This document shows, in pieces, positions 38 through 48,282 of a stretch of 64,000 nt of DNA. How positions within the stretch are numbered: the stretch's first letter is position 1; every line of letters begins with the position of its first letter. The stretch is from Natronomonas sp. CBA1123 (GTDB lineage: Archaea; Halobacteriota; Halobacteria; Halobacteriales; Haloarculaceae). The stretch spans positions 1 through 64,000 of the forward strand of contig NZ_WPCC01000015.1 of NCBI RefSeq assembly GCF_009741925.1, written 5' to 3'. The notes beneath the pieces are model-generated. The model saw nothing but the letters and a program-made list of their open reading frames with translations. It made no database searches and was not told the DNA's origin. The position numbers and the translations under genes are program-made.

Positions 38-182
38 TTTTTGCACGGCGGGCCTGCGGCCCGCCGGCAAAAACGTCGATGAAAAAGACACGTCGGCTCT
101 CCTTCCAGTCGAGCCTCGGTCCCGCGCCTCCCTTCGGTCGGCGCGGTTGAACCGCTCGCTCACTCCGTTCGCTCGCGGATGC
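38..182. repeat. Hairpin-rich dispersed intergenic repeat, copy 1
   Basis: The element opens with a hairpin at 38-73: TTTTTGC pairs with GCAAAAA outside, and GGCGGGCC pairs with GGCCCGCC around a TGC loop. The word TCGATGAAAAA follows. It closes with GAACCGCTCG and CGCGGATGCT. A second copy at 47113-47266 shares these landmarks in the same order and orientation, but its inner stem is GGTCGCC/GGCGACC, so both arms changed together. It fills the space between two convergent genes. T-runs flank the stem, so it could act as a bidirectional terminator, but a mobile or structured-RNA origin is equally open. Confidence 0.7.
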
Positions 183-45922: not shown

Positions 45923-47068
45923 CTACTCGGGGACCTCGTCGAGCGGCGACTCGCCCTCGCTCATCCGCGAGGCGAAGGCGACGCCGAGGAAACTCGCGAG
46001 GATGCCGGCGGCGACGTACAGCGCGAGTCGCCCCCAGATACCGAGGACGAACCCCTCGATACTCACTGGGCCGAGTTCTACCGCCGTGACCTCCAGCGGA
46101 CCGATGACGGCCGCGCGTTCGAGGAAGTACCCGGTAAAGCCGCGGACGACCAATCCGACGGCGACGACGCCGAACGGAAGGTTCATCAGCGCCGCGGAGA
46201 CGCTCTCTTCGGCCAGCAACTCGTCGATGAGGCGGCCGGTCGCCGCGGCCAGTGCCGCCGCCGCGAACCACGGAACGCTGTCGAAAATGAACCGCAAGCC
46301 GACCAGGAGTTCGCCCGTCTCGGCCGTTCCCACGCTACCCATGTTCGTCGCGCTGATGCCGCCGGCGAAGATGCCGACGAACGCCAACCCCGTCCCGACG
46401 ACGTAGGTGACGAGCGACACCTGCCCGGAGTAGAAGGCGTCACGAACCCGTCGGGGGAGCGTCGCCACGAAGTCGTCGATGCCGAGGCCCTTGTACAACA
46501 GGAACGTCCCGATGACCGCGGCGATGGCCGACAGCGCGATGGCCACGTCGTCGGCCAACAGCAACAACACCGGAAACGCGAGCAACGCGGCGCCGATGGG
46601 GACCAACACCGTCCCCCGGAGTTCCTCGTCGCCGAGGAACTGCTTCAGGAGGTAGTACGTCGACTGGATGTCGTGGGACTGCCGGACGACAACGCGGTCG
46701 ACCGCGTCGACTTGGACGCGACTCTCTATGATGGGGACGAGTCGCTCGTCGCTGGCCGAATCCGTGACGACGATGGCGGCCTCGATGTCGTTGTCCGCGA
46801 CGAGGGTGTCGATGCCCCGGGCGACGGCGCGGTCGCTGTTGACGCCGTCGCCGCCACCGCCGGAAATGACGGCGACGAGGGGGTCTTCGCCCTCGTCGCG
46901 GAGGTCACGGGCGACGCTGAGCGTCTCCAGCAGGCAGTTGACGCGGCTGTCCTCGGGGTCGTCGATGCCCACGTCGGTGACGAGCGCCTGGACGGCCTCC
47001 CAGCCGACGATTGGGCCGTCCGGCCCGAGGGTCCCGTCGCGGTCGACACACACGACCAGCGTACTCAC
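45923..47068 (-). CDS. DUF373-family membrane protein
   Basis: Archaeal DUF373 protein of 381 residues. The N-terminal cytoplasmic domain (1-150) begins TLVVCVDRDGTLGPDGPIVG and has AVISGGGGDGVNSDRAVARG and RVVVRQSHDIQSTYYLLKQF. About nine membrane segments follow from residue 160 on (VLVPIGAALLAFPVLLLLAD to LYVAAGILASFLGVAFASRM). The GTG at 47068 is taken as the start; an in-frame codon lies nine residues upstream. The promoter would have to lie in or next to the hairpin repeat at 47113-47266. Function is unknown. Confidence 0.82.
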   Translation of the reverse strand: MSTLVVCVDRDGTLGPDGPIVGWEAVQALVTDVGIDDPEDSRVNCLLETLSVARDLRDEGEDPLVAVISGGGGDGVNSDRAVARGIDTLVADNDIEAAIVVTDSASDERLVPIIESRVQVDAVDRVVVRQSHDIQSTYYLLKQFLGDEELRGTVLVPIGAALLAFPVLLLLADDVAIALSAIAAVIGTFLLYKGLGIDDFVATLPRRVRDAFYSGQVSLVTYVVGTGLAFVGIFAGGISATNMGSVGTAETGELLVGLRFIFDSVPWFAAAALAAATGRLIDELLAEESVSAALMNLPFGVVAVGLVVRGFTGYFLERAAVIGPLEVTAVELGPVSIEGFVLGIWGRLALYVAAGILASFLGVAFASRMSEGESPLDEVPE

Positions 47069-47112
47069 GGTGGTCCGTTGCCAGTGGGCGGACAAAAGCT
47101 TTCAGGACGAAC

Positions 47113-47266
47113 TTTTTGCACGGTCGCCTGCGGCGACCGGCAAAAACTTCGATGAAAAATAGCGACTCGTTCCCGTCGCGCGCCGAGGGCGCGCGGTGGT
47201 CACTTCGTCGCTACCGGCGGCTTCGCCGCCGGCGAACCGCTCGGCGCTTCGCGCCTCGCGGATGCT
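47113..47266. repeat. Hairpin-rich dispersed intergenic repeat, copy 2
   Basis: It starts with TTTTTGC...GCAAAAA at 47113-47146 enclosing GGTCGCC-TGC-GGCGACC, continues with TTCGATGAAAAA, and contains further strong hairpins (GCGCGCC/GGCGCGC and CCGGCGGC/GCCGCCGG). It ends with GAACCGCTCG and CGCGGATGCT, the same terminal words as copy 1 at 38-182. It fills the gap between sppA and the DUF373 gene, which are on the same strand. Stem bases differ from copy 1 while pairing is kept. Confidence 0.72.
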
Positions 47267-47283: not shown

Positions 47284-48282
47284 TTATACTCGGAACCGGA
47301 ACTCGCCGCTGGCGTCGGTGAACTGACTGGCGATACCGGCGCCGACGGCGTAGGCGACGGATTCGGCACCACCGCGGAGCCGTTCGGTGACGCCGAGTTG
47401 GGGCTCCAGCTCCGTCGTCGCCACCTCCTCGTCGAGCAGGCTCTCGAGGCGCTCCTCGACGTCTTTGCGGGTGCCGATGGAGTCGACGAGCCCCATCTCG
47501 TGGGCCTCGCTTCCGAGGAAGACTTTCGCTTCGGTGTCCCGAATCTCGGTTTCGTCCATCGCTCTCCCCTCCGCGACGGTTTCGACGAACTGGTCGTAGT
47601 AGTCGTCGATGATACCCTGCAGGTACTCCCGTTCCTCCGGCTCGAGGTCGTCGAAGGGAACGCCGGCCTCCTTGAACTCCCCGGCGGTGAGTTGTTCGTA
47701 TTCGAGGCCCGCCTTTTCGAGGAGGTCGGCGGCGGTCATCCGCGAGCCGCGGACGCCGATGGAGCCGACGACGCTGCCGTCGCGGGCCCACAACTCGTCA
47801 CAGCCGGAGGCTATCCAGTAGCCGCCGCTTGCACACACGTCCGTCGCGTAGGCGATAGTGGGGCCGTCGAACCGTTTCGCCGCCAGTCGGATGTCGTCGC
47901 TCGGGACGACGGCGCCACCGGGTGTGTTCAACCGCAGCAACAACGCCTCCGCGTTGTCGTCGTCGTCCGCGTTTTCGATGAGGTCGACGATTTTGTCCGC
48001 GCCGGGTGTACCGGGGGTCGACGGGGGAAATCCACCACCGCCGTCGCGGGTAATCGGCCCCTCGACGGCCACCTCCGCGACGTTGTACGCCGGAAACACG
48101 TTGGCAGCGATGTTGCTCCCGATGCGGAGTCCAACCGCTACGGTCGCGACCACAAGGAGCACACCGAGCAGGTCTGCGATATCTGTTGGGGTCTGGACGA
48201 ACAGTAGCCAGCCCGCGGCTGCCGCGACGATTGCGACGAAGATGCCAACCGTGAGTCTGGCTACTTTCTGAGCGCCGTTCAT
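47284..48282 (-). CDS. sppA: Signal peptide peptidase SppA (S49)
   Basis: Membrane-anchored serine protease of 332 residues that digests cleaved signal peptides. Two N-terminal membrane segments (ARLTVGIFVAIVAAAAGWLL and IADLLGVLLVVATVAVGL) precede the catalytic domain. The dyad is Ser152 in DVCASGGYWIASG and Lys204 in LEYEQLTAGEFKEAG. LLLRLNTPGGAVVPSDDI and VVGSIGVRGS are the standard flanking motifs. It is a half-length SppA, as usual in archaea. A small two-helix membrane protein gene lies 64 bases upstream on the same strand. Confidence 0.94.
   Translation of the reverse strand: MNGAQKVARLTVGIFVAIVAAAAGWLLFVQTPTDIADLLGVLLVVATVAVGLRIGSNIAANVFPAYNVAEVAVEGPITRDGGGGFPPSTPGTPGADKIVDLIENADDDDNAEALLLRLNTPGGAVVPSDDIRLAAKRFDGPTIAYATDVCASGGYWIASGCDELWARDGSVVGSIGVRGSRMTAADLLEKAGLEYEQLTAGEFKEAGVPFDDLEPEEREYLQGIIDDYYDQFVETVAEGRAMDETEIRDTEAKVFLGSEAHEMGLVDSIGTRKDVEERLESLLDEEVATTELEPQLGVTERLRGGAESVAYAVGAGIASQFTDASGEFRFRV

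Follow-up and report, generated by a model that had tools for sequence, protein, structure and literature searches.

Modular non-coding repeats made up of hairpins, with conserved end modules and a variable middle, are known as the BOX elements of Streptococcus pneumoniae, and the repeat family described here resembles them in this respect. In haloarchaea, the repeats that have been described include the PATEs and SMRs of Haloquadratum (PMC3119063). Hairpins also occur at transcript ends; in Haloferax, transcripts end at T stretches and in some cases at hairpins, and these archaeal terminators likewise combine T tracts with hairpins directly behind genes, although they are neither a sequence family nor mobile, unlike the present repeats (PMC7237163). 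The repeats examined here were found in the window, by which we mean the whole 64-kb stretch of DNA that was analysed. In our judgment they are probably short, non-coding, non-autonomous mobile elements consisting of chains of DNA hairpins, which enter at a TTC/T-rich target and whose hairpins turn over as units.

A sequence-only reading of the window had proposed two copies of a hairpin repeat, at 38-182 and 47113-47266, and both are present, with their shared blocks in the order it gave. Across the window there are exactly two occurrences of TTTTTGC..GGCAAAAA, where shuffled sequence would lead one to expect none. The inner stems are also as claimed, CGGCGGGCC/GGCCCGCCG in copy 1 and CGGTCGCC/GGCGACCG in copy 2, each closed by a TGC loop. 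The true edges are slightly wider (33-183 for copy 1, 47108-47266 for copy 2), and an additional outer stem, lying outside the two intervals first proposed, covaries as well (CGAC/GTCG in copy 1, CGAA/TTCG in copy 2). The parts of the two copies and the neighbouring genes are these:

24-26, + strand: target-side TTC of copy 1, the codon preceding TAC-TAA of the upstream gene, whose stop codon is at 30-32 (from sequence and target enrichment)
33-78, + strand: hairpin 1 (head) of copy 1, with outer stem CGAC/GTCG, C.C mismatch, TTTTTGC/GCAAAAA, bulged A, CGGCGGGCC/GGCCCGCCG and TGC loop (covariance-model match 32-86, 80.5 bits; fold and pair counts)
79-86, + strand: conserved box ATGAAAAA of copy 1
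87-121, + strand: hairpin 2 of copy 1, a middle module of the GACAC type (fold)
122-146, + strand: hairpin 3 of copy 1, CCGCGCC/GGCGCGG (fold)
149-183, + strand: tail of copy 1, GAA followed by a CCGC..GCGG hairpin with T.C/C.T internal loop and ATGCT (fold; 88 tails compared)
189-1202, - strand: nitronate monooxygenase gene (PF03060), neighbour of copy 1, converging on the element
45923-47068, - strand: DUF373 gene (PF04123), neighbour of copy 2; the element's T5 starts 44 nt upstream of the predicted start codon
47101-47103, + strand: target-side TTC of copy 2, complementary to the promoter-side GAAA of the DUF373 gene
47108-47151, + strand: hairpin 1 (head) of copy 2, with outer stem CGAA/TTCG, C.C mismatch, TTTTTGC/GCAAAAA, CGGTCGCC/GGCGACCG and TGC loop (covariance-model match 47107-47159, 75.9 bits; fold)
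47152-47159, + strand: conserved box ATGAAAAA of copy 2
47160-47213, + strand: hairpin 2 of copy 2, of the TAGCGAC type with an inner hairpin nested in it (fold)
47214-47232, + strand: hairpin 3 of copy 2, CCGGCGGC/GCCGCCGG (fold)
47234-47266, + strand: tail of copy 2, GAA, CCGC..GCGG hairpin and ATGCT (fold, tail comparison)
47284-48282, - strand: S49 peptidase gene, SppA-like (PF01343), neighbour of copy 2, with transcription directed at the element

Both copies are thus real, but a count of two is far too low: the window's own genome gave 46 blastn matches and 44 matches to a covariance model of the head only, built from 25 copies and with rough E-values. The repeat family is dispersed, short and non-coding, with roughly 40 copies in this genome, a draft whose count is blurred by contig ends that fall in repeats, so that a few matches represent one split locus. 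Contigs C2, C14, C35, C46, C47, C55 and C59, as well as the window's contig, end or start in or beside a repeat copy, and L026 and L027 are apparently one locus divided between two contigs. The covariance-model search of this and other haloarchaeal genomes, several of them incomplete, recovered further copies in which the head pairing is kept on alignment, as the sequence-only reading would predict. The model matched 80 times in G001, 34 in G009, 28 each in G015 and G010, and about 30 each in G016 and G018, and several other Natronomonas genomes had none or one to four weak matches (e.g., G002, G004, G007, G017, and G019). Some other Haloarculaceae genera carry dozens of diverged relatives, with outer stems such as ACCATC..ATGGGTGAAAAA and CCCACC..GTGGGCGAAAAA, and in a sample of 295 genomes from the whole phylum no significant match fell outside the window's own order. 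The open-licence literature searched for Natronomonas, RepRanger and the GTAG/CGTC repeat survey held no matching description, and within that literature the family is apparently undescribed.

Elements are about 145-250 bp long, 115-254 bp at the extremes, and have a constant order of parts. Read on the window's + strand, the head consists of an outer stem of 4 or 5 pairs, a C.C mismatch, TTTTTSC, a bulged A, a GC-rich inner stem usually closed by a 3-base loop, GSAAAAA, which pairs with TTTTTSC, and the second arm of the outer stem, for which covarying types include CGAA/TTCG, CGAC/GTCG, TGAAC/GTTCA, and CCCA/TGGG. The head is followed by (A)TGAAAAA, by one or two middle hairpins, which fall into several types, and by a tail composed of GAA, a CCGC..GCGG hairpin with a T.C/C.T internal loop, and ATGCT. 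The head hairpin was found in 102 and the tail hairpin in 88 distinct sequences. The ends of the element, CGAAC.. and ..GGATGCT, are not inverted repeats of each other.

Copies are strongly concentrated at gene boundaries. On the same strand, T5 starts 3-10 nt past a stop codon in 48 of 57 cases, compared with 3.3% of random intergenic points, and 21 of 28 opposite-strand cases have it starting 44-51 nt ahead of a start codon, compared with 6.7% of random points, where gene starts for the distance counts came from a simple gene caller. The last sense codon is TTC at 15 of 36 unique sites but in only 1.9% of control genes, and T content at positions -15 to -11 is 2.25 vs. 0.88 in controls (10 standard deviations above; 0 of 2000 resamples). 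Since TTC followed by a stop codon is already present at the orthologous gene ends of element-free species, the motif is the target and not a product of insertion, and a change of the last codon brought in by the element was rejected on the same evidence. The promoter-side TTTC would be the upstream promoter box GAAA seen from the complementary strand. From the TTC/T-rich motif to the outer stem, the distance varies from 3 to 7 nt. T5 lies 13 nt past the end of the tRNA-Met Rfam match at some loci; at L018, L064, and L088 (three genomes, with the same flank in G009), the element starts 13 nt after the SRP RNA gene ends, and the stems differ. Few copies stand between divergent genes, where 46% of random points fall. 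In the sample from other genera, T enrichment is present in a weaker form. Two single copies from other genera, L125 (about 1480-1560) and L234 (about 960-1025), lie behind genes that are also occupied in Natronomonas; the shared genes end in ..ANIF* and in ..DYF*/..VDYF*, read as EF-2. This placement at orthologous genes across genera suggests shared insertion hot spots or transfer together with the gene.

Comparison of filled and empty sites bears on mobility. The site of copy 2, between the SppA and DUF373 genes, is filled in G000, G009, and G015 and empty in nine other genomes, and the promoter sequence CCTGAAAGCTTTT begins exactly at the element's end. Presence/absence differences also occur within a trio with flanks more than 90% alike: L028 is filled in G000 and empty in G009 and G015, L115 is filled in G009 and empty in G000 and G015, and L053+ and L053- are filled in G015 and G009 and empty in G000. 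The aligned sites show that copies were gained or lost at given positions between close relatives. A small non-autonomous mobile element was among the readings first offered, and it is supported by the dozens of copies, the empty sites, the targeted insertion, and the nested modules. The right flanks at L028, L034, L115, and L053 are diverged or lie in local tandem duplications, and a search for target duplication at these loci gave no alignable right junction. At L034, the local tandem duplication takes in part of the element and its flank. Downstream sequence often differs between close species (G000, G009, and G015 at L013, L053, and L115), and copies may mark synteny breakpoints. Many sites are common to three or four species, so activity need not be recent, and the conservation of positions might also reflect functional selection.

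Within filled sites, hairpins are exchanged as whole units. At orthologous sites with flanks 94-100% identical, hairpins are replaced as blocks in about a dozen cases; the site of window copy 1 carries a different subtype in G009 and G015 with boundaries unchanged, and N. gomsonensis has a different module type at the site of copy 2 hairpin 2. By our own count, 11 of 17 orthologous pairs with the same arms are inverted, as in the TGC vs. GCA loop of L015 and L104 or the whole 47-base asymmetric hairpin of L033 and L182. The 102 heads use just 31 distinct arms. Of the 69 three-base loops, 51 have the form TNC or GNA, with GNA mostly found on the minus strand; in DNA, the hairpin loop d(C-GNA-G) has exceptional stability. 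Because the C.C mismatch, the bulged A, and the internal loop are conserved despite this turnover, they are probably recognised by something, and on their sequence pattern they are candidate recognition features.

Certain hairpin pairs recur within elements at different sites, namely module A (GTGGCGGC..GCCGCCAC with GGTTGCGGGC..GCCCGCAACC), module B (GAGAGAGC..GCTCTCTC with GTCATCACGAAAG), and module C (CAGAAATC..GATTTCTGATGGG). Module B, noted at L212 (3018-3075), L028, L122, L182, and L186, was seen within elements and also in G019, in a stretch read as part of a TnpB-like gene some 1.1 kb past a Y1 transposase gene on its downstream side. In this it resembles an independent small mobile repeat with a preference for palindromes, and its placement is similar to that of the small mobile repeats of Haloquadratum, which attack PATEs and IS605 elements (PMC3119063).

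Pairing in the head was quantified on 25 aligned heads, where 11 of 20 pairs have changed on both sides and 91% of cells are paired, a proportion that falls to 36-55% with shifted partners. G-U pairs are nearly absent. They account for 1 of 714 inner stem cells in the 102 distinct heads, and for 5 of 2166 head pairs (0.23%) compared with 18 of 296 pairs (6.1%) in tRNAs at the same loci, with an identical folding procedure for both. The step from covariation to a functional fold, as first argued, is therefore not supported: the two arms change in concert with hardly any G-U intermediates, and sister species differ at the same site by entire hairpins exchanged or turned round. This combination points to copying of hairpins at the DNA level and not to stepwise compensatory selection on an RNA; the paired arm changes would arise by template switching or conversion among copies, either of which would keep the arms perfect.

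The same data bear on a structured RNA, either trans-acting or a 3′-UTR element, whose fold is kept by selection. The double-sided changes and high pairing of the head would suit such an RNA, as would the conserved unpaired features (the bulged A, C.C mismatch, T.C/C.T loop, GAAAAA, and GAA..ATGC). However, G-U pairs are all but missing, inverted hairpins stand on an equal footing with the original orientation, and modules are freely swapped; Rfam had no match at gathering score within the 64-kb window, and at ten loci it matched only the neighbouring tRNA, SRP RNA, and S15 leader. We therefore hold a structured RNA to be very unlikely. A conserved bidirectional terminator or insulator, with position and fold maintained by selection, is less remote and still unlikely. 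T5 behind the stop codon would stop transcription of the upstream gene, and transcripts from the opposite side would be ended by hairpin 2 with the TTTTTC and TTTTTGC after it. This is consistent with placement right behind stop codons and 13 nt behind both tRNA-Met and SRP RNA, with T5 tracts on both strands, with the scarcity of copies between divergent genes, and with positions often common to several species. Yet the element is present at only about 1% of gene ends, the same genes in relatives manage without it, the wobble pairs expected of an RNA fold are absent, and a preference for TTC as last codon is not expected of a terminator; moreover, T5 precedes hairpin 1 in the sense direction instead of following it, and some copies are decayed or truncated. 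Position and T tracts make a role in termination plausible; it would probably be secondary.

Relics and partial deletions, together with the inversions and swaps of hairpins, would also fit inert hypervariable palindromes, i.e., an old terminator-like repeat whose arms were perfected solely by template switching during replication and whose apparent gains are losses elsewhere. The strong preference for a pre-existing TTC motif, the family-wide dispersal of one fixed architecture, and the presence/absence differences in the trio with closely similar flanks make this extremely improbable.

For mobile hairpin chains, the preferred reading, the course is partly visible in the comparisons. Entry is mostly just downstream of the TTC/T-rich motif at the last codon before a stop, or alternatively where an opposite-strand promoter has its upstream edge. 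Judging from the anatomy, the inserting form would be single-stranded DNA whose hairpins are bound by an enzyme with its gene elsewhere, for which the bulged A, the C.C mismatch, and the T.C/C.T internal loop would serve as recognition features. Once inserted, hairpins turn over as units, with arms replaced whole, loops or hairpins inverted, and other modules inserted; template switching or conversion between copies would bring this about. Transcription arriving from either side may end at the T5 tracts and hairpins as a by-product, which would make copies easier to tolerate at gene ends.

No mobilising enzyme was identified by comparing Y1 genes with copy number or by looking for element ends at 27 IS200/IS605 loci. 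The number of copies does not follow that of Y1 transposase genes: no Y1 match turned up in G010 with its 28 copies, and the low-copy genomes G002 and G017 have 4 and 3 Y1 matches. Neither a head-model match nor the full tail motif was found around the 27 TnpA/TnpB loci, which held only short simple-motif matches and module B at one locus, and the six Y1 loci searched had no element heads around them. An IS200/IS605 TnpA as mobiliser is thus supported neither by presence/absence nor by the ends at TnpA/TnpB genes. It is conceivable, and we put it forward tentatively, that the repeats represent a haloarchaeal class of mobile hairpin chains served by a non-IS200/IS605 enzyme that reads the TTC-stop/promoter-edge motif, with hairpins as exchangeable and invertible cassettes and compensatory change arising without selection on RNA.

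Several haloarchaeal genera have genomes with dozens of these copies, homing to gene ends and promoter edges, and repeats so placed can reshape 3′ ends and transcription boundaries. They also provide a clear natural case of textbook covariation with almost no wobble pairs, accompanied by hairpin swaps and inversions, which cautions that covariation alone is unsafe evidence for a functional RNA; the G-U fraction offers a simple test for separating DNA-level palindromes from RNA folds.

Among known systems, REP/REPIN sequences with their RAYTs are similar: they too are palindromes outside genes, their stems have conserved imperfections, and they often stand shortly after stop codons. However, REP units are 20-40 bp long, unlike the chains of three or four hairpins seen here, and the GTAG tag is absent, as 55 unique 5′ flanks are of the CGAAC, CGACC, GAACC, or CCCAC types. 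Filing under REP was rejected for lack of the tag and of a linked RAYT or element-flanked Y1 transposase. MITEs, which share terminal inverted repeats with a transposon and usually duplicate their target, were rejected as well because the element has no terminal inverted repeats. The BOX elements are unrelated in sequence and host, and we know of no TTC-stop targeting by them. The double-hairpin elements and GC clusters of fungal mitochondria (Paquin 2000, cited in PMC4478555) are also GC-rich, intergenic, mobile hairpin pairs with palindromic units that have merged and been shuffled; they differ in being of unrelated sequence, in organelle DNA, and at another target, and in GC42 clusters loops vary while stems are constrained, whereas stems are swapped whole here.

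Overall, the family seems to work like a non-autonomous mobile element defined by its hairpins, and of the known kinds the haloarchaeal PATEs appear closest. Like the PATEs of Haloquadratum walsbyi, it is haloarchaeal, transposase-less by size, and free of terminal inverted repeats, with palindromes near both ends, many diverged copies, other small repeats that invade them, and “switch repeats” that occupy the same positions (PMC3119063). PATEs do not duplicate their target; here, right junctions were not alignable in filled/empty pairs. The terminal palindromes of PATEs resemble those of IS605-type elements, a similarity not seen at the 27 loci here; filing as PATEs was rejected on this ground and on the failure of Y1 genes to track copy number. 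PATEs have a fixed 5′ targeting sequence of 4-5 bp; here a TTC/T-rich motif is enriched at a variable distance of 3-7 nt from the outer stem. Finally, the present elements stand apart in the fixed T5/A5 and GC-stem architecture of their ends and in a target at TTC-stop codons or promoter edges.
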